A DNA stretch of 64,000 nt from Brevibacillus panacihumi W25 (lineage in GTDB: Bacteria > Bacillota > Bacilli > Brevibacillales > Brevibacillaceae), in NCBI RefSeq assembly GCF_000503775.1, contig NZ_KI629785.1, positions 1,177,501-1,241,500 of the forward strand, in the 5' to 3' direction. The position numbers and the translations under genes were made by a program. Positions 3,947-51,535 of this stretch are shown here, in pieces; position 1 is the first letter of the stretch; each line of letters begins with the position of its first letter. The notes beneath the pieces are model-generated. The model saw only the letters and a list, made by a program, of their open reading frames with translations. It was not told where the DNA came from and searched no databases.

Positions 3947-6484
3947 TTATTGGTGCAGACTTACCATATTGACAAACATCCGGATCGCCCCCGGCACCAG
4001 GGCGGGAATCTCGCGGTACCAGACCAGCGAGCTGTAGGTATAGGTTCCTTTTCCATAGTTGGCTGTCAGGAAGGTTCCGGTATACTCCTTCTCTCCCGGA
4101 TCGCCGTTGCTGATCAGCTCCGTGTAGTCCTTGCCCCACTCAGCCGGATTGTAGGCCGAGCGATCCTGGACCCAATGATTCCAGTCTTCTGCCGTAATCT
4201 TGTTCGGGATGTTGAAAATGGGATGATCAGGCGCCAGCATGGTCACCGGAGAATTCTCGTCCGTCACCCGCCATTGGATTAACGGAGTGCCGATCTTGAT
4301 CGGATAAGGAGCAAGCTCCGGCTTCCACTTGTCCTCCGGCTTATGGTATTGAACGACGAGATTGCCGCCGTTTTCCACGTATTTGAGCAGGCGGTCATTG
4401 CTTGCCAGCAGTTCCGGACGGAAGCCGTAAGCGCGAATCCCCATGACGATGGTATCGTACTGACTCAAGTCGCCGGATTCAATGTCTTTGGCAGACAGAT
4501 TGGTCACGTCGACGCCGAATTGCCGCAGATACTGATCGATGTTGTCAAAACCGCTGGAGACGTAGCCGACCTTCAAGCCCTCCGGCACTTGCAGATCAAA
4601 CGCCTGGATCTTCAACTCCGCAGGCTTGACGAAATAAGTGGTGCCGATATGCGGGTAGCGGATGACCTGCGCCCCGTGACGGCTCTCTTTGCCATTTCCT
4701 CGGGCAACAGCAGTAACCGTGTAGGTGTCCGGCTTGACTGATGCGGACGCCGTCACCGTAAAGGCGACAGACTGTGTCTCACCCTTGGAAGCAAAATCAA
4801 GCGACGCTGCATTCGGTACAACGCTCCAGCCAGCGGGCACCTGCAGCGAGATATTTGTCTTCGCGGCACCCGGCGTATAATTGCGCACGGTGACCTTGAC
4901 CGGAATCGATTCCTTTGGTTTCAACGTATTCAGGACCGTAGCTCCTGGACTAAGCTCCATGGCATAAGGAGGAAGGACCGCTACGGGTTCCGCCGGAGCA
5001 ACTCGACTGGTCGCAGCAGAATTGGCAAAGGTGTACGTTACGTCCGCGCTGACCAGGCTGGCAGCATACGGCTGGAAGAGTTCAGCATTGGCCGGAACAG
5101 TCACCTCGTATGTCGCTGTAGACGTCTGATTGTAGCCCACTGTCTTGAAGCTCGTTTCGCCTTTTGCTTTTGCCTGCCAGCCTTTTGGCAGATTCAGCTT
5201 GACGTCTACCTCGTTCACTGGCGACTGTCCGCCATTGTAGACGGTGACACTCATGTTCGTCTTCTGCCCTGCCACCAGTTCATTCGTCTCCGCCCTTACC
5301 TTGATGACGAGTGACAGCGCTTCTGCACTTGCTTTGTTCAACTGCCCTTCCTTGACCTGAAGCCGATGCAGCAGGTCCTGCTTCACAGCATCGCTCAGCT
5401 TGGAATTTTGGAGATCTGCTATTGTCTGCTGCAAATCAGCTTTCATAGCATGCACAGCTACGGCCACATCCGCAAAACGCGGATAGGCGGCAATCACGTT
5501 GTCAGCGTCCTTCTGCAGCTTTTTCAAGCCGGCAATGATCGGCCCCGAGCCTGGCTGTGTGGTCACTTCCCGTGCGAGGTCGTCAAACGTGAAGGCGATT
5601 CCGTCAAAAAAGCCGGATTCCTGTCCCGTGCCAACGGGTGCTGCCGCGGCTGCTTCCAGCTTGTAGTAGCTGTAGCGCTCCCCCTCGTCGTAGTGGCGTC
5701 CCATGCCCTGGCTCTTGTGCATAAAGCGGGACTCTTCGCCCAATTGCAGGTAGGACGCGCCGTACAGCTCGTCATAGTCCCCGACCGGAATCCGGACGGA
5801 ATACGCGTCCTCCTTGGCTGGCACATAGAGCTTTTTCACCTGCCAGGGAGCAATCCCCTCGCGTGCATGCTGCGGGAAAACATCGGGATTGGCAGCGTCG
5901 GCAAAAGCTTTGACTGTTATGACATTGATGGCGCGATGATGGCCGTGTGTAGAAGGTTCATTCAGGAATGCGGGAATGACGACATCAGGACGCAAGGTGC
6001 GGATCGTGCGGATCAGCCTTTCATACGCTTCCTGCTCTCCCCATTTTTCCAGGGTTTCATCCGGGCTTTTGGAGAAGCCGAAGTCGTAAATCGGGTCATT
6101 GATCTTTTGGCTCAGCATTTCCAGATGGACATTTGTGACCTTGGAAGCCTCTTGCAGCTCCCGTGTGCGGATGATTCCCAATGCGTTGTCCAGCTCGCTG
6201 CCGATCTCGTTTTGTCCCCCTTCGCCGCGATTGGCGATGACACTGTACGTGTCTACCCCCTGACCCAGAGACAAATACGCCAGCATGGCGCTATGCTCGT
6301 CGTCGGGGTGGGCTCCCGTGTTCATCGCACTGGCGATGGTGGTCAGCGGTTTGATCGCCTTCCACAAATCCATGACCCCGCGATCGGCATGCGCGGTCTG
6401 CGGTGCTGCCGGCCATACCAGACTCCCGGCGAGCGCCGCCGCTGTCGCAAGCGAACACAGCTTGGCAAATTTCCCATTCCTCAT
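3947..6484 (-). CDS. Secreted multidomain PIG-L deacetylase with NEW3-like domains
   Basis: An 845-residue exported protein. Residues 1-33 are a signal peptide with a basic start, hydrophobic core and an AHA-type cleavage site. The PIG-L domain follows, with AHPDDE near residue 60 and an HGHH second motif near 180. Residues about 390-640 hold two beta-rich NEW3/CARDB-like domains. The C-terminal ~190 residues (from YDTIVMGIRAYGFRPE) resemble a class I glutamine-amidotransferase-like fold. The ATG is preceded by GGAGGAGAG. Being extracellular and beside an ABC importer, it probably trims the acetylated substrate before uptake. Confidence 0.8.
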   Translation of the reverse strand: MRNGKFAKLCSLATAAALAGSLVWPAAPQTAHADRGVMDLWKAIKPLTTIASAMNTGAHPDDEHSAMLAYLSLGQGVDTYSVIANRGEGGQNEIGSELDNALGIIRTRELQEASKVTNVHLEMLSQKINDPIYDFGFSKSPDETLEKWGEQEAYERLIRTIRTLRPDVVIPAFLNEPSTHGHHRAINVITVKAFADAANPDVFPQHAREGIAPWQVKKLYVPAKEDAYSVRIPVGDYDELYGASYLQLGEESRFMHKSQGMGRHYDEGERYSYYKLEAAAAAPVGTGQESGFFDGIAFTFDDLAREVTTQPGSGPIIAGLKKLQKDADNVIAAYPRFADVAVAVHAMKADLQQTIADLQNSKLSDAVKQDLLHRLQVKEGQLNKASAEALSLVIKVRAETNELVAGQKTNMSVTVYNGGQSPVNEVDVKLNLPKGWQAKAKGETSFKTVGYNQTSTATYEVTVPANAELFQPYAASLVSADVTYTFANSAATSRVAPAEPVAVLPPYAMELSPGATVLNTLKPKESIPVKVTVRNYTPGAAKTNISLQVPAGWSVVPNAASLDFASKGETQSVAFTVTASASVKPDTYTVTAVARGNGKESRHGAQVIRYPHIGTTYFVKPAELKIQAFDLQVPEGLKVGYVSSGFDNIDQYLRQFGVDVTNLSAKDIESGDLSQYDTIVMGIRAYGFRPELLASNDRLLKYVENGGNLVVQYHKPEDKWKPELAPYPIKIGTPLIQWRVTDENSPVTMLAPDHPIFNIPNKITAEDWNHWVQDRSAYNPAEWGKDYTELISNGDPGEKEYTGTFLTANYGKGTYTYSSLVWYREIPALVPGAIRMFVNMVSLHQ

Positions 6485-38273: not shown

Positions 38274-38304
38274 ACTTTGTATTTTGGAATCTAATTGAAA
38301 ATGT

Positions 38305-38352
38305 AAAGAGGTACTCAGAAACGAAGAAACGTCCCTGAGTACCTCTTTTTTA
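38305..38352 (+). terminator. que operon terminator
   Basis: AAAGAGGTACTCAG and CTGAGTACCTCTTT arms followed by TTTTTTAT. Confidence 0.88.
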
Positions 38353-38365
38353 TTGTATCGAACCT

Positions 38366-38833
38366 TTAGCTCAATCTTTCGTTGTTACTTTGGATATGCA
38401 TGCCGATCGTTGCACCGATAATCCGAACCTTATCGAACACTGTCAGTACTTCTTGGCCAGTCAGCGTGTAGATTTTTCCGGCGTGACCGTCACCGATTAA
38501 TGCGGCTACCCCTACGTCGGCGATGTCGGCAACGTGAATCATAGCGCTGGGCGAGTTACCATAAGGTATTTCGTATCTGGCTCCCTCTTCATTTCGTAGA
38601 AGTAACGGACCGGTGACCTTTAACGTCTCAGCATCAATCACATCTGATGCATGAGTGCTGATGTCCACTCCAGACTCCTACATAACCTGAACAGACCGAG
38701 GGTTCAGACCGTGAGCTTCTAGACCCGCGCTTTTCACCTCGTAACGATCGCCACCCAGCGCTTTCAAAAATCCAACGGCGATCTGGCTGCGGCAAGAGTT
38801 CCCGGTGCAAAGGAATAAAGTATTTGACTGACG
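38366..38833 (-). pseudogene. Chimeric remnant: arsC arsenate reductase 5' part joined to an NmrA/SDR-like 3' part
   Basis: On the minus strand, 38833-38620 reads as thioredoxin-type arsenate reductase: [17 protein letters not shown] with the catalytic P-loop Cys, then [20 protein letters not shown]. An in-frame TAG at 38680-38678 follows, then ESGVDISTHASDVIDAETL. From about 38620 the frame switches without a break to an NAD(P)-binding SDR/NmrA-like tail (SAMIHVADIADVGVAALIGD, KIYTLTGQEVLTVFDKV), ending at 38366. No start codon remains at the 5' end and the ArsC C-terminus with its two redox Cys is gone. Confidence 0.75.
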
Positions 38834-38918
38834 TGGGCGCTAAGCTAACGGGCAGGAGAGTTGAAGAACAAAGAGAATAACTAAGGTTATCAATTTTAGG
38901 ATAGGCGGTGATAAGAAG

Positions 38919-39386
38919 ATGGCTCAAGTAACTCTGAAAAGAATAACTTCTGAAAACTGGAGGGAGGCTCTTGAACTTTCCGTAAATGTTGAGCAACAAG
39001 AATTTGTTGCCGCTATCACACCACCTGTTGCAATTGCTCTTGCCAAGGCGTATATCAGACCAGACGGCAGGATGGTCGAACCTTACGGGATCTACCTTGA
39101 GCAAAATATGGTTGGTTTCTTCAATCTGCACTATACTCCCGATAGCAAAGAAGACTATTGGGTTTTTCATTTTTTCATTGATAAAAGGTTTCAAAGAAGA
39201 GGTTTAGGATCTGCTGCAATGGCGAACTTGATAAAACATATCAAAGAAACCCACCCTTCTTGCCATTGCATTCGCTTGACTGTCCATCCCAAAAACGAGG
39301 CGGGGAAAAGCTTCTATACTAGGCTTGGATTTAGCGATAATAAAATTCTTTCATTTGGTGAACCAACATACTCCATCTACATTTAG
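38919..39386 (+). CDS. GNAT family N-acetyltransferase
   Basis: A 155-residue acetyltransferase. The acetyl-CoA-binding motif A is FIDKRFQRRGLGSAAM (Q/RxxGxG/A) and motif B is NEAGKSFYTRLGFSD. It resembles spermine/spermidine or streptothricin-type acetyltransferases (PaiA/BltD-like); the substrate is unknown. ATG follows AGGCGGTGATAAGAAG. It is AT-richer than the que operon and lies inside decayed ars genes, consistent with acquisition. Confidence 0.82.
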   Translation: MAQVTLKRITSENWREALELSVNVEQQEFVAAITPPVAIALAKAYIRPDGRMVEPYGIYLEQNMVGFFNLHYTPDSKEDYWVFHFFIDKRFQRRGLGSAAMANLIKHIKETHPSCHCIRLTVHPKNEAGKSFYTRLGFSDNKILSFGEPTYSIYI

Positions 39387-39396
39387 GCATACCTTG

Positions 39397-39423
39397 TTCA
39401 ACTAACGCATTACGTTAGTTCAA
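39397..39423. repeat. Inverted repeat directly after the acetyltransferase gene
   Basis: TTCAACTAACG and CGTTAGTTCAA arms, with one mismatched pair, surround CATTA. The first bases GTTCAAC also match the RYYYAAC core of integron attC sites, but the matching GTTRRRY partner is absent. Function unknown; possibly a terminator. Confidence 0.5.
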
Positions 39424-39424
39424 T

Positions 39425-39477
39425 GAAGCAGCGACAGTCTAGGACTTTATTTTCTTGTCCTTGATTGTCGCTGTTTC
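39425..39477. repeat. Long hairpin spanning the 3' end of the truncated arsB
   Basis: GAAGCAGCGACAGTC pairs with GATTGTCGCTGTTTC, including one G-T and one A-C position, with an inner GGAC/GTCC stem. It includes the final codons of the arsB fragment, suggesting the truncation point formed at or beside this repeat. Confidence 0.55.
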
Positions 39478-40172
39478 ACTTCGTGCAGCTAGCATAAAGA
39501 TAATGGCAGCAATCCCTGCCGTGACGGATACCGGAATGGCAATCACTTCATTCAGAAGATAACCTGTCAGCAGAATCCCCAAAATGACCCAGGAGAGTCG
39601 AAAAAGACGAACATCTTTTAGGGCTTCATGAGGCTGTTTTAAAGAAGACAATTCATACTGTTTGGGAATATCATTTTTAAAATATAGATACAAAACGAGT
39701 AAACTTGCACCTAGCGAGAAAAAGTTCGGTACAATCATCCGGGTCGCATACTCAACAAATCCGATATCAAAAAAGTCTGCAGAGACGATGCTGACCAGGT
39801 TGCTCACGATCAATGGCAACGACGTGGTATCCGCGATAAAGCCACTTGCCATGATAAAAGGCAAAATCATTTTATCCGGGAATTTCAGGGCACGTACTTG
39901 TGCAAGAACAATCGGTGTCAGAATCAGTGCCGCACCATCGTTTGCAAAGAAAGCAGCTACAGCTGCTCCCAACAGGACCACATAGACGAACATCCGTCGG
40001 CCATTCCCTCTGGCTAACCTGGCCATGTGCAAGGCGGACCATTCAAAAAATCCGATTTCGTCCAAGATCAGCGAAATCAAAATAATGGCCACAAACCCCA
40101 GCGTTGCATTCCAGACGATTCCCGTTACACAACGTCGGCAAAGCTGACAACGCCAAAAACTAATACCAAACC
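39439..40172 (-). pseudogene. arsB: arsB arsenite efflux pump, frameshifted and truncated at both ends
   Basis: The frame from 40092 to 39439 encodes the ArsB core ([68 protein letters not shown]). Upstream, VVSFADVV and [15 protein letters not shown] are in different frames separated by a one-base loss near 40126 that creates TAA. The first ~35 residues are missing and the protein stops after about 60% of the usual ~430 residues. Eight or so helices remain. It cannot be a working pump. Confidence 0.82.
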
Positions 40173-40198
40173 TTATATCGTTATAACTATATGGTTAT

Positions 40199-42730
40199 TT
40201 AACTCATACACTGTTCGATCTGCAAGCAATCCTTGTCGCAGGTGGCAGGGACCTGCCAATCGGCGAGCATCGCACCGAGTTCCTTCTTTGTGGCAGCATA
40301 GGCCTTTTCGAGTTCGGTGGCGAGCAGCTTGCGACACTCTTCGGCGGACGCTCCGCAATACCGATGTTTCGGTTCGGGAGCCTGGCCCGAATAGAACCGG
40401 ATTTCATCGGCAACTCGGGATAGCCAGGGGCTTGCCGTGTCCGGATTTATGTTCAGCGAAGGCAGATTGTTGGTCTTGCCGGCTCCGTCAAGGATTTCGC
40501 TTCCGAGCTGCGGTTCGAACACGGAGCGCACGAGCGGTTCCCAGAGGCGGTCAAGCAGCGCAATCCCAGGGCCGTGCTCAAGCTTTCCATCGCCGTTGTT
40601 GTCGAGACGCAACCCGTCGACTGCTGCCCAACGATCAGCAAGCTTATATGCCTCCTCTGCTTCCTTGTCTGGAAGCTCACCAACGAATTTGCGGATCAGC
40701 GGGTAGAACTGCTGGGCCTGGAAGTCGGTCACCGCTGCTTTGGTGTGGATTTTGACGAGGTCGGTCAGGGAGATCGGCCCCTTCGCGACTGCATCCAAGG
40801 TTGGTTCCTTCAGCAACTTCACACGGTGGTCGCTGGTTGCGGACCAATATTGATCCTTCATTGGCCAACCAACCGCGGTTGCGTTGTTCCACCCAGCAAT
40901 CACGCCGTCCGGACCGTTGATCGTATGGGGGTACTGGGATTTGGGCGGTGTCTGGAAGGTGTAGCTTGACGGATCGAACCCCTCCCAATCCCACTCGCCA
41001 GTACCCCAGACAGGCAAGTCACGAGCGGCCCCGGGAGCCCGTACCGGCACCAGACCTGCATCGAAGCCGGCGATGTCCTTCGTGTCAACGTACCACCAGC
41101 CGATATTGTAGGCCGTCCCGGTCACCACCTCACCGAAGTCCGCCGCAGACTTGATGACGGAAGGCGAGAACAGCTTGGCATGCGCGACGTAGTCCATTTC
41201 CTCGTGCATGTAATAGGTCCGTGCCTGTGCCAGGGCGACCGGTTTGCCACCGGACATGGCCCGCCCGATGACCGGCCCATGGACGCTGCGCTCGGACGTC
41301 AGGGTGTAGCTTCCGCCGTCTGCAAGCTGCCTGCTCTCGGTTCGGGTCGTGAACGGTAGGCACTTGCCCTTGTAGAGATAGTGGGTGGACTGAATTGTCG
41401 CAGCTTTTCCATCCGGCTCACACAGAACTTCGGCGAAGGTATCGGCCTGATCGGGAGGCAGGATCGTGATCGACCAGGCATAGTTTTCGCCACGTCCCGC
41501 GACATAAGGATAGGGTCCGCTGATTTCCAGAATGCCGCGTGCCTTGAAGTCCGGCGCAACAATGGCGATCTCGGAGTCGAAATTGTGCGGTGTGGCGTAG
41601 CCATCCTGAGGGCCTTGCACGGCCAATGGATGGCCGGTAACGGAGTGCTTGGCGGCCACCAGCAAGGCATTGGAGCGTACCTTCGGAAGCATTGCAAGAT
41701 CCAGATCCAGCGAAGCCTTCTTTTGCCCGACCCGGAGAATTTCCCTCGGCTTATAACTGTCGAGGTCGAGCTTTGCGATCGATGCCGGATTGACCGCCAG
41801 ATCGACACTCTGCACTGCGGGCAGGCTTACTGACGTACGGGCGTTCTGCTTGGACCGGAGATCTTCGTAGACCGACTGCGCCTGGTCGCCGAACTTGGCT
41901 TCGAGCTGCGCCAACAATTGCGCGTTAGCCTCTTCGCCCGCTCTGAGGCCTCCGCCCCAGGAAATATGATTGAACGCTGCCATGGCCATGATGTCGGTTA
42001 CATCCCAACGCTGGGGCTTGATATTGCGATGGACATATTCGAGCGGCAGGAGCGAGGAGTCCGCTTCGATCGCATCGAGATAGGCGTTCAAACCATCAAC
42101 ATAGGCTCGAATGTCTTTCGCCGCCTGTTTGCCCCAATAGCCATACGCCACCTCGAGGCGGTCGAACATCGCCTTATATTCTTCCTTTGAGTAGTCGATC
42201 AGGCGAAAGGTTCGAGCATCGGATTGCAGGTTCATGTCGTTCTCACCGCGCCCAAGAAACTCAGCGCTGCGCGCCCACCATTGTGCTCGAAACTCATCCA
42301 TCTGCCAGAGCCGATCTTGCGCTCTCGCGTAGCCGACGCCGAACATCGCGTCCTCGCGCGTATCGCCCTTGACGTGGGGGACGTTGTGGGTCTTGTCACG
42401 AACGATCTCGACGCCGACTCGCGGCGAAATACGCGACGCCACATCCTGCGCAGGCACCTCAAAGTCGGCTGGCTTGAAGAAATTTGAAAGCTCGTCTTCC
42501 GTGAGGTGATCCAGTGCCTTTGGCAACCCGTCGTACATGTCGCGCTGGCTTTGCGTACCTGGTGGCTCAACCCCTTCTTTGACATAGTTACCACCGTTGC
42601 CGGGAGCGAAGACCCCCTGCACATGAAGGCTGGGATCCGCCGACGCAGTCACGGCTCCTACCATCAAAAAAACGGCCAACGATAAAAGCATCATGCAGGC
42701 ATGCTTGCGTATTCGCCTATTTCCACGCAT
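40199..42730 (-). CDS. Penicillin acylase family protein (Ntn hydrolase, peptidase S45)
   Basis: About 843 residues. Signal peptide RRIRKHACMMLLSLAVFLMVGAVTASA; alpha chain with VEIVRDKTHNVPHVKGDTREDAMFGVGYARAQDRLWQMD; linker; then the autoprocessing site before the nucleophile Ser in VRSNALLVAAKHSVTGHPL (near residue 345), and beta chain with the NYAWSIT and oxyanion-side Asn in AGWNNATAVGW. The enzyme cleaves amide bonds, such as acyl-homoserine lactones or N-acyl amino acids; substrate unknown. Codon use is markedly GC-rich. ATG 42730 is 7 bases after GGGGGA. Confidence 0.88.
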   Translation of the reverse strand: MRGNRRIRKHACMMLLSLAVFLMVGAVTASADPSLHVQGVFAPGNGGNYVKEGVEPPGTQSQRDMYDGLPKALDHLTEDELSNFFKPADFEVPAQDVASRISPRVGVEIVRDKTHNVPHVKGDTREDAMFGVGYARAQDRLWQMDEFRAQWWARSAEFLGRGENDMNLQSDARTFRLIDYSKEEYKAMFDRLEVAYGYWGKQAAKDIRAYVDGLNAYLDAIEADSSLLPLEYVHRNIKPQRWDVTDIMAMAAFNHISWGGGLRAGEEANAQLLAQLEAKFGDQAQSVYEDLRSKQNARTSVSLPAVQSVDLAVNPASIAKLDLDSYKPREILRVGQKKASLDLDLAMLPKVRSNALLVAAKHSVTGHPLAVQGPQDGYATPHNFDSEIAIVAPDFKARGILEISGPYPYVAGRGENYAWSITILPPDQADTFAEVLCEPDGKAATIQSTHYLYKGKCLPFTTRTESRQLADGGSYTLTSERSVHGPVIGRAMSGGKPVALAQARTYYMHEEMDYVAHAKLFSPSVIKSAADFGEVVTGTAYNIGWWYVDTKDIAGFDAGLVPVRAPGAARDLPVWGTGEWDWEGFDPSSYTFQTPPKSQYPHTINGPDGVIAGWNNATAVGWPMKDQYWSATSDHRVKLLKEPTLDAVAKGPISLTDLVKIHTKAAVTDFQAQQFYPLIRKFVGELPDKEAEEAYKLADRWAAVDGLRLDNNGDGKLEHGPGIALLDRLWEPLVRSVFEPQLGSEILDGAGKTNNLPSLNINPDTASPWLSRVADEIRFYSGQAPEPKHRYCGASAEECRKLLATELEKAYAATKKELGAMLADWQVPATCDKDCLQIEQCMS

Positions 42731-42811
42731 TTCCATTCCCCCATCTCTTTTTCTGATTGCGAGAGCCAAGGCAGCAAGTCCGGTACGTCATAGCATCTGC
42801 CGGCGTTGGCG

Positions 42812-44200
42812 TCACTCGGCTGCCACACTTTTCTGTTTGGGTGCAGCCAACGTCAACGTTGTGATGGTGACGAAACTGGCGATCAGCCCGTACACGATTG
42901 GATCAGTCGAGCTGATTCCCTTAACCGCCAAACCGACGAGGATCACCACCGTACTAACCAGAATGGAATAGAACGCCGCTTTGGCTGTCGTCTGTTTCCA
43001 GAAGAATCCCAGGAGGACCGGGAAGAAAATCGCTCCTGACAGCACTGCATAGGCTATATCCAACGCCACCAGCACATCCTGAATCCACACAGCGCAGATG
43101 ATCGTAAACACCCCGATGGTGAAGGTGGTCAGACGAGATACCTTCATGAAGCGCTGTTCGCTCATGTCAGGTGCGAAATATCCCTTGACGATATCGTTGA
43201 CGATCAGCGTGGAAGAAGCAATCAGCGTTCCGGAAGCGGTGGACATCAGGGCAGAAACGACACTGGCCAGAACGATTCCAAGCACACCGCTCGGCAGCGT
43301 TTGCAGTGCCATGCTGGCAAAGGCATTCTGCGGATCGTCCAGATTAGGCAGCACTACGAATGCGCACATGCCGATGATGGAGAGCACGATTGCGTACAGG
43401 AAGCTGTAGACCCCGGCTCCGATCGTTCCGTATCGGGCAATCGTCATGGTGCGGGCGGTGAAAATCCGCTGCCATATATCCTGCGCCACGACCATGCCCA
43501 GACAAAACAACAGGAAATACTGAATAATCGTCTCCAGTCCAACATTGGTAAAGTCAAAATAGTTCGCCGGCACTTTCGCCGCAAGGTTGCTCCAGCCGCC
43601 CGCTTTGGACAGGCTCATCGGCAGCATGATAAAGAAAATACCGATTGTCATGATGACGAATTGCACGATGTCAGTCATTGTTACAGACCACATGCCGCCG
43701 AGAATGGTGTAGAACAGCACGATTCCTCCCCCGACGATCATAGATACCGTCATGTCCCAACCAAGTAGCACGTTCAGGATGGTGCCCATCCCGATTACCT
43801 GCGTCACCGTCACCATCATCGCATAGATTGCGGCCACCAGCGCACTGATCAGGCGTGTCTCCCGGTTAAAGCGGCTTTGCAGCATTTCGCTTACTGTAAG
43901 TACCTTCAGACCGGAAATTTTCTTAGCGAGAAAAATCCCAAGCACAACGATGCCCATCCCCAGCATAAAGACCAGCCAGATGCCGGACATCCCCAGTTGG
44001 TACCCCAGCTTTGTCGTTCCAATCGTGGAAGCGCCTCCAAGTATCACCGCAGCAAGGCAGGCAAGATACATGGTGAAGCCCAGATTGCGCCCCGCTACAA
44101 TGTAATCCTCCGAGGTTTTGGCCCGTCTTGCCCCCAAAATACCAACAAAAATTAAGACAGAAAAATAGAGTATCATGACCAAAATATCAACCGAATGCAT
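42812..44200 (-). CDS. Sodium:solute symporter (SSS family)
   Basis: 462 residues with about 13 membrane helices; hallmarks are the start DILVMILYFSVLIFVGILGARR, AGRNLGFTMYLACLAAVILGGASTIG and SALMSTASGTLIASSTLIVNDIV (sodium-binding helix 8). It lies 88 bases after the agmatinase-family gene on the same strand and probably imports that enzyme's guanidino substrate. ATG follows GGGGGAGCACA. Confidence 0.88.
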   Translation of the reverse strand: MHSVDILVMILYFSVLIFVGILGARRAKTSEDYIVAGRNLGFTMYLACLAAVILGGASTIGTTKLGYQLGMSGIWLVFMLGMGIVVLGIFLAKKISGLKVLTVSEMLQSRFNRETRLISALVAAIYAMMVTVTQVIGMGTILNVLLGWDMTVSMIVGGGIVLFYTILGGMWSVTMTDIVQFVIMTIGIFFIMLPMSLSKAGGWSNLAAKVPANYFDFTNVGLETIIQYFLLFCLGMVVAQDIWQRIFTARTMTIARYGTIGAGVYSFLYAIVLSIIGMCAFVVLPNLDDPQNAFASMALQTLPSGVLGIVLASVVSALMSTASGTLIASSTLIVNDIVKGYFAPDMSEQRFMKVSRLTTFTIGVFTIICAVWIQDVLVALDIAYAVLSGAIFFPVLLGFFWKQTTAKAAFYSILVSTVVILVGLAVKGISSTDPIVYGLIASFVTITTLTLAAPKQKSVAAE

Positions 44201-44288
44201 TGTGCTCCCCCCAAATTATCATAGATAGGTAGGGCTGGGTCCGGCCGATCAACAAGACGGCCCTTCCCTATTTACAACCGTTTTGATG

Positions 44289-45251
44289 CTAGTTGCCGTT
44301 TTGCATCTCTCTCTTTTTCAAGGCAATCAGCGTAATAAATTCATAGACGATGTTGGCAGCTGCCGCAGCGGTAATCTGACCGTGGTCATAGGCAGGCAGC
44401 ACCTCTACCAGATCAAACCCGACGAAGTTAATCCCCGTCAAACCGCGGACGAAAGCAAGCGCATCATCCATGCTGGCACCGGACACTTCAGGCGTTCCTG
44501 TCCCCGGCGCATAGACCGGATCAAGGAAGTCAATGTCAAACGACAGGAACACCGGTCCGTTGCCCACACGCTCGTGAATAATCTCCAGCATCCTCTCGAC
44601 GCCAGCCTTCTTATACTGGTTGGTCGTGTAGACATCCAGTCCCAGATTCCTGGCATCGTCCAAATCCTCGATACCATACAAGCCGCCTCGCATGCCGATC
44701 TGTATGGAGCGGGAGACGTCCAGCAATCCTTCCTCGATAGCACGGCGGAACACGGTGCCATGGTTGTATTTTTTTCCAAAATAACTATCCCACGTATCGG
44801 AGTGGGCATCAAATTGAAGCAGTGCAACCGGTCCGTGCCTGTTGGCGATCACTCTCAGCTCCGCAAGCGTAATCGAATGGTCGCCCCCCAGGACGATCGG
44901 GATGATGCCCTGCTGAACGACTGGTGTCAGTCCTTCTTCCATTTTTTCATAGGTGTCCTGAATGTAACCGGGAACTACCTGAATATCCCCATAATCCACA
45001 CCAGATACGTAGTCAAATACATTGATTGCCTGCTCCGGGTTGTACGGACGCAGCAGAATGGAGAAATCCCGGATTGCCTCCGGGCCGAAACGCGCGCCCG
45101 TTCGAAACGATTGGCCCGAATCAAACGGTACTCCGGTAATCACGAAATCCATATCCTTATCCAATGTCTCAATGAAAGGGAGTCGCATGAAGGTACGGGG
45201 TCCGCAAAAGCGCGGGGATTGAAACGAATCTCTCGGTTGGTACTTACCCAT
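44289..45251 (-). CDS. speB: Agmatinase-family ureohydrolase
   Basis: 320 residues. The two-manganese site is visible: GGDHSITLAEL, LLQFDAHSDTWDSY and SFDIDFLDPVYAPGTGTPEVSG. Family members hydrolyse agmatine, guanidinobutyrate or other guanidino compounds to urea plus an amine. The specificity is not settled by sequence inspection. ATG 45251 follows AGGAGGAAACATC; the longer frame is rejected. It is transcribed from the sigma-54 promoter at 45289-45305, together with the symporter and possibly the acylase. Confidence 0.85.
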   Translation of the reverse strand: MGKYQPRDSFQSPRFCGPRTFMRLPFIETLDKDMDFVITGVPFDSGQSFRTGARFGPEAIRDFSILLRPYNPEQAINVFDYVSGVDYGDIQVVPGYIQDTYEKMEEGLTPVVQQGIIPIVLGGDHSITLAELRVIANRHGPVALLQFDAHSDTWDSYFGKKYNHGTVFRRAIEEGLLDVSRSIQIGMRGGLYGIEDLDDARNLGLDVYTTNQYKKAGVERMLEIIHERVGNGPVFLSFDIDFLDPVYAPGTGTPEVSGASMDDALAFVRGLTGINFVGFDLVEVLPAYDHGQITAAAAANIVYEFITLIALKKREMQNGN

Positions 45252-45288
45252 GATGTTTCCTCCTAATTCAGATTTGAGTAGGTATATC

Positions 45289-45305
45289 AGCAACAACCGT
45301 GCCAA
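45289..45305 (-). promoter_or_regulatory. Sigma-54 (SigL) promoter of the agmatinase-symporter unit
   Basis: On the minus strand TTGGCACGGTTGTTGCT matches the -24/-12 consensus TTGGCACN5TTGCT exactly, 38 bases upstream of the start codon. Such promoters need an enhancer-binding activator, which is not encoded in this window. Confidence 0.85.
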
Positions 45306-45423
45306 AAGTGAAAAGTAAGCGTTTTCAAGAGAAATCGCGATTTTTCACCGTTCATGGTATTCACTGTTGAATAGGATGAAAACAAGAAAGTGCTCCAATA
45401 TAGTGCTTTCACGCTCCCTATAC

Positions 45424-45448
45424 ATCGATGAATACCATATTCATCGAT
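45424..45448. promoter_or_regulatory. Palindromic upstream activator site for the sigma-54 promoter
   Basis: A perfect 11-bp inverted repeat, ATCGATGAATA and its complement, with a CCA spacer, is centred about 130 bases upstream of the -24/-12 promoter, the usual distance for enhancer-binding proteins. A related half-site (ATGGTATTCA and TGAATA) lies at 45354-45372. Confidence 0.65.
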
Positions 45449-45453
45449 ATATA

Positions 45454-45505
45454 AAAAAGGTTACCTTACGCTCAGTCCAATTGATGACTAAACAAAGGTA
45501 AACAG
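45454..45505 (-). terminator. Intrinsic terminator of a short minus-strand transcript
   Basis: On the minus strand TTTACCTT pairs with AAGGTAA and TTTAGTC with GACTGAG, followed by six T residues. It ends a transcript from the small gene at 45515-45604. Confidence 0.55.
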
Positions 45506-45514
45506 TCGCAACTA

Positions 45515-45604
45515 TTAGTTCTCTTCCACTTCCGCTTTCTCCCGCTTGCGAAAGCGACGCACTTTCAACAAATTGCCGCAGCATTTGTAACACACCTGCG
45601 GCAC
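45515..45604 (-). CDS. Candidate 29-residue Cys-rich basic peptide
   Basis: GTG start 5 bases after AAAAAAGG, giving a peptide with a CYKCCGN motif (CxxCC) and a strongly basic middle (KVRRFRKREK). It is followed directly by a terminator-like hairpin. It lies in the 5' region of the sigma/anti-sigma fusion on the opposite strand. Not recognised; coding status is uncertain. Confidence 0.35.
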   Translation of the reverse strand: MPQVCYKCCGNLLKVRRFRKREKAEVEEN

Positions 45605-45724
45605 ATATACCTTTTTTCAAATCTGTAAAAATTTGTTCTTCATATGGTAGAACAGAATGTAAGAAATGATCGGCACGCCCCGTAGTCCTAAGTGAAAGGC
45701 AAAGAAAACATGGGAGGGACATCC

Positions 45725-47137
45725 ATGCACGAGGACCAGGAATGGGTAAACCAGGTCTTGAACGGAAATAAACAAGCCTACGCCCATCTGATTCACAAGT
45801 ACAAGGACAGGATTTATGCATTGCTCCTTCGCATGGTCCGTCATCTTGGCATGTATGTCTCTCCGACATTTGCCTCCTACGTATCCTCCTTCGTCAGTCG
45901 GGTCAGCGGGGACCTTGGACTAAAATTTGCGGCTGAAAACGGCTTCAATACAGCAGTCAATCAATCGGTCAGCGATCAGGGATACACCTTGCGCGTGAAG
46001 GATATCGTCGCCGACTCGGCTCGACTCGTCATCACCTATACGCTGGAGGATGCAAGCGGCAACCCCTTGGACGATCAGTATCTCCACTATTTTGACGGCA
46101 GCAAGATCTATCTGGCTGACAAAGTAGGGAATGTCTTGTCTGAATTGCCGGAGGATCATGAATTGGGACAGGGCTATGGGGACATCACGTTTGTACTCGA
46201 TGAATGGCCGAAAGACGAAGACATCGTCGTCCATTTTGATGTACATGAGATTGGAGTCCGTGACCCTAAACCGGTCAATTTCGCATTGCAGATACCGGTC
46301 AATATTGCAGAAAGCAAACAAGCAGCGACGACGATCCCTGTCCAAAACGTCTTTACATCGCCGCAAGGCATCCGGTTCTCCTTTGATCAGGTCATGTATG
46401 CACCGAGTGCGACGCGCTTCGAGATCACGACATCCGTGACAGACGAATCGTATGAACGAGAGAGACAGCTCGTCCACGAGATGGAAGGGGATGATGCCGA
46501 TTTTACCATGGATGATAGCTACCGCTTTTCGTATCGAATCGTCAATCAGGCAGGCGAAGTGATAGCGGCTTCTGAGCGTGGAGAGGTGAATAGCGGACGT
46601 ACACTCTACTTTTCCCCTACCTATCCAAAAGGGGAAAATGTAAAAACGGGAACCATTCAGTGGAAGACAGCCATCATCCCGGGAGAGCCATCCGAGACGC
46701 TGACCTTTATCCTGGATGAAATCGAGAAAGAAGAGAGAGCCGATTTTGCCATCTCGATCCGTCCTGACACGTTGCTTCAATCTCCTATTTCGAAAACCAA
46801 TGAGGAGACGGGAGATACCTATACGATCAAGGGCCTGAAAAAGGGAATTTATCCCGGAACTAATGAGGAGATCTGGGTCATGACAATCGAAGGGAATCTG
46901 AAGATTTGGGATATGCCATCGTGGATCTTGAGCGACGGAACGGGAAAACGCTATGAAGTGACTCCCGACTATACGACCATGACCGTCAGGCATACCAAAG
47001 AGGGAGAGATTCTGAAACAAAATTTGTTTATCAAGGGAATGGCCTCACCACCTGAGGAGCTGTCCCTGAAGCTGAAGACCTACAAGAAGCGTTACACGAA
47101 TATCGAGTGGAAAGTTCCGATTCCATCTCAAAAATAA
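45725..47137 (+). CDS. In-frame fusion of an ECF sigma factor start to a DUF4179 anti-sigma domain
   Basis: 470 residues. Residues 1-36 (EDQEWVNQVLNGNKQAYAHL, then YKDRIYALLLRMVRH) are region 2.1 of an extracytoplasmic-function sigma factor. Immediately after, VSPTFASYVSSFVSRVSGDL and SVSDQGYTLRVKDIVADSAR begin the DUF4179 extracellular domain of the partner anti-sigma factor, which continues to the end. Missing are sigma regions 2.2-4 and the anti-sigma cytoplasmic domain and membrane helix. A deletion of roughly 1 kb joined the two genes in frame. No signal peptide is left. ATG follows GGGAGG. Confidence 0.82.
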   Translation: MHEDQEWVNQVLNGNKQAYAHLIHKYKDRIYALLLRMVRHLGMYVSPTFASYVSSFVSRVSGDLGLKFAAENGFNTAVNQSVSDQGYTLRVKDIVADSARLVITYTLEDASGNPLDDQYLHYFDGSKIYLADKVGNVLSELPEDHELGQGYGDITFVLDEWPKDEDIVVHFDVHEIGVRDPKPVNFALQIPVNIAESKQAATTIPVQNVFTSPQGIRFSFDQVMYAPSATRFEITTSVTDESYERERQLVHEMEGDDADFTMDDSYRFSYRIVNQAGEVIAASERGEVNSGRTLYFSPTYPKGENVKTGTIQWKTAIIPGEPSETLTFILDEIEKEERADFAISIRPDTLLQSPISKTNEETGDTYTIKGLKKGIYPGTNEEIWVMTIEGNLKIWDMPSWILSDGTGKRYEVTPDYTTMTVRHTKEGEILKQNLFIKGMASPPEELSLKLKTYKKRYTNIEWKVPIPSQK

Positions 47138-47150
47138 TTCCAGCCACTGT

Positions 47151-47178
47151 GGGCATGGTCATCCATGCCCATTTTTTT
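47151..47178 (+). terminator. Terminator after the sigma/anti-sigma fusion
   Basis: Perfect GGGCATGG/CCATGCCC stem, 4-base loop, then ATTTTTTT. Confidence 0.88.
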
Positions 47179-47195
47179 ATCGAGCAGTTTGGTTC

Positions 47196-47598: not shown

Positions 47599-47682
47599 GT
47601 AAAGCACACTCCTTTTGCTACGATATTGAGAAATTGATGCCATAGAATGAGCCGATTCATCAGGAAGACCATCCGATATGTT

Positions 47683-47805
47683 TTATGATGCCCCCCCGTT
47701 CTTCTCACTCAACCGTTGGACCTCTTTCTCCAAAAAATCAAGCCGCTTGTGAATGCGGTAAAAAATCGGCAAGTAGGCAATTACGACAATGATGAGCCAG
47801 CCCAT
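47683..47805 (-). CDS. 40-residue membrane peptide with short coiled coil
   Basis: ATG 7 bases after AAAGGAGG. One hydrophobic helix (MGWLIIVVIAYLPIFY) is followed by a heptad-like amphipathic segment (HKRLDFLEKEVQRLSEKN). First gene of the trio of small membrane proteins. The strong ribosome-binding site and clean frame argue that it is real. Function unknown. Confidence 0.6.
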   Translation of the reverse strand: MGWLIIVVIAYLPIFYRIHKRLDFLEKEVQRLSEKNGGAS

Positions 47806-51376: not shown

Positions 51377-51535
51377 CTATCGTGTTTCTTTGATGCGATA
51401 CCCATACGGATACGCTTCTCGGTACCCGAGCTTTTCATAAAGTCGTCGGGCCGGCAAATTATCTAAGATGACCAGTAAATGGGAGGCCAAGCGTTCATGG
51501 ACAGTTCCTCTAGTTCTGCAATCACGGACATCATC
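51377..51535 (-). pseudogene. Remnant of a GNAT acetyltransferase (C-terminal part only)
   Basis: On the minus strand the frame reads HERLASHLLVILDNLPARRL then YEKLGYREAYPYGYRIKETR before a stop at 51377, a typical GNAT C-terminus (NxxARRLYEKLGF). No start codon or motif A remains, and the frame begins at the stop codon of the adjacent DinB gene. Another frame of the same stretch gives VREAEMMSVIAELEELSMNA, like a GNAT N-terminus, so an internal deletion with frameshift is possible. Confidence 0.6.

Follow-up and report, generated by a model that had tools for sequence, protein, structure and literature searches.

In the soil bacterium Brevibacillus panacihumi W25, a single uninterrupted frame of 470 codons at positions 45725–47137 of the window (the whole 64,000-nucleotide stretch of DNA that was analysed) starts with 40 ECF sigma factor codons and continues into the cognate anti-sigma factor, of which it holds the extracytoplasmic part with DUF4179 and DUF5643. 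Very probably, this frame results from a recent W25-specific loss-of-function deletion of one sigma/anti-sigma module, which left a cytosolic, probably inert product. Read in this way, the locus shows cleanly, and with an approximate date, how such a module is lost. It would be a case of ordinary gene decay and not a new kind of regulator, and would leave the knowledge of sigma/anti-sigma systems unchanged.

Composition of the fused frame

In B. panacihumi JCM 15085, the counterpart of codons 1–40 of the fusion lies in the ECF sigma gene (locus L016, positions 4109–4228 less the start offset); codon 41 is a hybrid, and codons 42–470 correspond to the anti-sigma factor of the same strain. A preliminary description of the window had recognised a sigma/DUF4179 anti-sigma fusion in one open frame, which is confirmed by the comparison with JCM 15085, Pfam and NCBIfam; it had given the sigma part about 36 codons, and here the origin was right, but the count is 40. 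In Pfam, DUF4179 was detected with E = 7.6e-16 and 58.8 bits against a cut-off of 30.1, the match being N-terminally shortened (profile positions 22–93 of 94, with the first 21 missing), and DUF5643 gave a sub-threshold match. The SigW/RpoE N-terminus of NCBIfam covers residues 3–42. An alternative in-frame GTG start at 45692 has no support comparable to that of the ATG at 45725.

Neither the sigma-70 region 2 domain nor the region 4 domain was found in the fusion with Pfam, whereas both were found in the intact ortholog, in line with the earlier claim that the product is unable to work as a sigma factor. The Pfam search also found no cytoplasmic sigma-binding zinc finger (zf-HC2/ZAS) in the fusion. 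The top 19-residue hydropathy is 0.88, in a segment broken by Arg/His, versus 1.59 in the intact anti-sigma factor; by this measure, the fusion has no clearly hydrophobic segment and no single transmembrane helix, and a cryptic membrane anchor or signal sequence, looked for by hydropathy in the hybrid N-terminus, was not found. The loss of export and anchoring signals had thus been read correctly. The proposed absence of sigma regions 2.2–4, the anti-sigma cytoplasmic domain and the membrane helix holds for the sigma factor beyond part of region 2 and for the zinc finger; as for the helix, most of it is gone. The features of the locus are listed in Table 1.

Table 1. Features of the fused sigma/anti-sigma locus of strain W25 (window coordinates)
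Feature	Position	Strand	Basis or remarks
Left edge of JCM 15085 homology	45619..45657		51-bp difference beside promoter -35; upstream, other W25 genes and no divergent DUF4367 gene
Former sigma/anti-sigma operon: promoter-like pair of ECF type, TGTAAG-N18-GTAGT	45658..45686	+	Pattern in orthologous loci
Ribosome-binding site, GGGAGGG region before ATG 45725	45713..45719	+	Sequence; same in L016
Sigma N-terminus, codons 1–40, up to part of region 2	45725..45844	+	Collinear with L016 sigma gene to 4226; NCBIfam
Deletion junction	45845..45847		L016 4227–5020 lost; T at 45846 unmatched; net loss 793 bp
Anti-sigma extracytoplasmic part: DUF4179 without membrane helix, then DUF5643-like, stop codon	45848..47137	+	About 94% identical to JCM 15085; Pfam; fold match 3FBQ
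Rho-independent terminator of the former operon	47149..47180	+	Hairpin and T-run, fold of 47100–47195, z = -3.7

Intact pair in strain JCM 15085 and the deletion

Strain JCM 15085 carries the ECF sigma and anti-sigma genes intact and separate (L016, which is the same place as G016 C18). The sigma ORF spans L016 4073–4669, with the counterpart of the window ATG 45725 near 4106, and encodes both regions 2 and 4; the anti-sigma gene (4656–6311) overlaps it and encodes a weak zf-HC2 with HxxxCxxC, a membrane helix and DUF4179/DUF5643. The pair (L016 4109–6311) is orthologous to the W25 locus, with the same promoter pattern and a DNA identity of about 94% in the retained parts and 92–95% in the flanks; it differs in consisting of two overlapping genes with sigma regions 2 and 4, a zinc finger and a membrane helix, whereas in W25 the gene boundary and its surroundings, 793 bp in all, are gone. 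An intact ortholog in a close relative, together with functional domains lost in W25, is what a unitary pseudogene formed by deletion would show.

In the base-by-base comparison, window position 45845 pairs with L016 4226 and 45847 with L016 5021, and the T at 45846 fits neither side. The net 793 bp missing in W25 comprise the sigma factor after residue 40 through the stop codon and approximately the first 121 anti-sigma residues, and with these the zinc finger and the greater part of the membrane helix. The comparison supports a single simple deletion that brought two neighbouring operon genes into one frame. The preliminary description had proposed such an in-frame joining, with which the intact pair and exact breakpoints agree; its breakpoint at about 45840 is now placed at 45845/45847, and the loss of about 1 kb stands as a loss, with a measured size of 793 bp. 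Short repeats at the breakpoint, for which it had proposed a search, were not found beyond chance: the two breakpoints share no word longer than 5 bp, and none in register. The event would hence be illegitimate and not repeat-mediated, and an assembly collapse over a repeat does not explain it. A search for the lost segment elsewhere in W25 found it absent.

These observations suggest the following course. An illegitimate deletion of 793 bp would have begun inside sigma region 2, run past the sigma stop codon and ended within the anti-sigma membrane helix, most of which would have been lost along with the zinc finger; that the two frames met in phase had a chance of one in three. The resulting 470-residue protein would be cytosolic, without sigma activity, sigma-binding domain or membrane anchor, and its 470 codons would still be intact because the deletion is recent. 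Such a deletion takes the sigma factor and the inhibitory domain together, so no unrestrained sigma factor would be left behind. What remains is an annotatable but probably meaningless hybrid gene, a warning to annotators that a long intact DUF4179 frame is not necessarily a working anti-sigma factor.

Retained expression signals and fold

As described earlier, the ribosome-binding site and the terminator are kept (GGGAGGG before the ATG and a hairpin with a T-run). The promoter-like pair lies 67 nt upstream of the W25 ATG, and the same pattern occurs in all six orthologous loci, 67–74 nt upstream of the sigma start; it is expected in 0.15–0.4% of shuffled 260-bp sequences, the pattern having been picked after inspection. 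ECF systems are usually autoregulated. The lost sigma factor itself probably drove the former operon promoter, and its loss would then have switched this promoter off; low expression of the fusion is therefore to be expected. We infer this autoregulation, as well as the cytosolic location and the absence of function of the fusion product. Just upstream of the promoter -35, at window 45655–45657, W25 is without 51 bp of JCM 15085, including the palindrome ATTTCCATTGGAATGGAAAT.

The AlphaFold2 model, built with seven related sequences, has block mean pLDDT values mostly of 70–94 beyond residue ~80 and low values in the hybrid N-terminus. The sequence search of solved structures returned only weak matches to sigma-factor N-termini. 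The best Foldseek match of the retained domain was 3FBQ (E = 5e-8, 14% sequence identity), the extracellular domain of the Bacillus anthracis anti-sigma factor BAS1627, which belongs to the DUF4179 family (PMC6066255). The 3FBQ protein is membrane-anchored, whereas the W25 fusion lacks an anchor. As modelled, the retained domain is probably still able to fold.

Decay of the neighbourhood

In two other Brevibacillus (L019 and L020), a DUF4367 gene adjoins the sigma gene divergently. In JCM 15085, this gene (L016 2917–3861, minus strand) contains a premature in-frame TAG after the signal-peptide region, and in W25 it is absent. A 7.3-kb segment of W25 (window 38274–45618) stands in place of 3.5 kb of JCM 15085; it carries genes for an acetyltransferase, a transporter, a penicillin-acylase-like protein, a sodium/solute symporter and an agmatinase-like protein, and only a 0.57-kb part of it matches elsewhere in the JCM 15085 genome, at 75%. 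A second W25 deletion, of 589 bp with a 4-bp GGCC microhomology and diverged bases beside it, is located 5.6 kb downstream (window ~51481) and took the greater part of an acetyltransferase gene whose JCM 15085 counterpart (L017 5583–6482) is intact. The broken or absent DUF4367 gene and the 589-bp deletion nearby indicate that the locus is decaying, and the latter also indicates that deletions are frequent in this region and do not single out the sigma locus. At window ~47675–47770, W25 has about 93 bp that JCM 15085 lacks, which points to small deletions in both lineages.

Selection and age of the deletion

The dN/dS of the DUF4179 part, proposed earlier as a check, is 0.12 versus JCM 15085 (428 codons of the anti-sigma part; dS 0.193, dN 0.023), and there is no disabling mutation. 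This value mostly reflects the history before the deletion, though retained use fits it too. In a relative-rate comparison polarised with the closest outgroup, 11 amino-acid changes are private to W25 and 4 to JCM 15085 (p = 0.07, a trend that is not significant); with a more distant outgroup, the counts are 3 and 4, and the excess is gone. The neighbouring control genes have no overall skew of changes toward W25.

With the W25 branch taken as half of dS and the indel rate assumed to be 10% of substitutions, the best fit for the neutral share of the W25 branch is 2–10%, with upper 95% bounds of 11–19%. At best fit, no disabling mutation is found with a probability of 0.15–0.74, compared with about 6e-9 for neutrality along the entire branch. 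The upper bounds make the deletion recent relative to the split of W25 and JCM 15085; with a deletion that recent, within roughly the last 20% of the W25 branch, selection is not needed to explain the intact frame. The preliminary description had left the choice between a very recent event and retained use of the soluble domain, and the former is better supported, by the decaying neighbourhood, the weak amino-acid excess and the age bound.

Alternative explanations

It is unlikely that the fusion is an assembly error in which the draft lost about 0.8 kb and the real W25 pair is intact. Strain W25 is represented by one assembly, a short-read, gap-filled draft of 11 scaffolds (5.5 Mb, scaffold N50 1,760,181 bp) obtained from 100-bp Illumina paired-end and mate-pair reads with SOAPdenovo, SSPACE and GapFiller (PMC3900908), which leaves room for such an error. 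However, the breakpoints offer no shared words in register, the missing DNA is not on another W25 contig, the window contains no N, and a second simple deletion, with diverged bases alongside, lies nearby at 51481. That the W25 frame encodes a working sigma/anti-sigma fusion like IutY or ECF48/52/53 is hardly conceivable. Natural fusions comprise IutY (ECF243), ECF48, ECF52, ECF53 and some ECF36 (PMC8999054), and the literature on fused sigma/anti-sigma proteins yielded functional fusions only. The W25 frame resembles them in placing a sigma N-terminus ahead of anti-sigma sequence in one polypeptide. The known fusions, however, retain the sigma factor and the zinc finger and/or membrane helices (PMC8999054), whereas the W25 fusion retains neither a working sigma part nor an anti-sigma/membrane part: it has no sigma region 4, little of region 2, no zinc finger and no membrane helix, and this domain content refutes a fusion of that type.

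It is very unlikely that selection now maintains the extracytoplasmic-type domain in the cytosol, as a soluble protein that has taken up a new role such as the binding of its former ligand or of another partner. The undamaged frame, the low dN/dS, the retained promoter-like pair, ribosome-binding site and terminator and the predicted folding of the domain would all suit such a role. However, the intact frame is expected from the age bound alone, amino-acid changes are in weak excess, the neighbouring partner gene is lost, the deleted sigma factor was the probable activator, and there is no export or anchor signal. The particular case of an orphaned sensor domain kept as a cytosolic binder, with the retained promoter read by another ECF sigma factor, is highly improbable. 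A recent loss-of-function deletion remains the preferred reading.

Distribution of the fusion and related loci

At the other loci read in W25 and in the genus, sigma and anti-sigma factors are encoded by separate genes. Wide occurrence of the same fusion, which the preliminary description had named as contrary evidence, was not seen: among the matches listed in 39 genomes of the order, it occurs in W25 only. Within these matches, only the window aligns from residue 1; all others start at query residue 32 or later, so the match of no other listed homolog includes the sigma N-terminus. Elsewhere in W25 (L024 779–2284; C5:618787–620016), a DUF4179 anti-sigma gene with a zinc finger stands as an orphan, with no adjoining sigma gene in the 4 kb read; a homolog of it is present in JCM 15085 (G016 C77).
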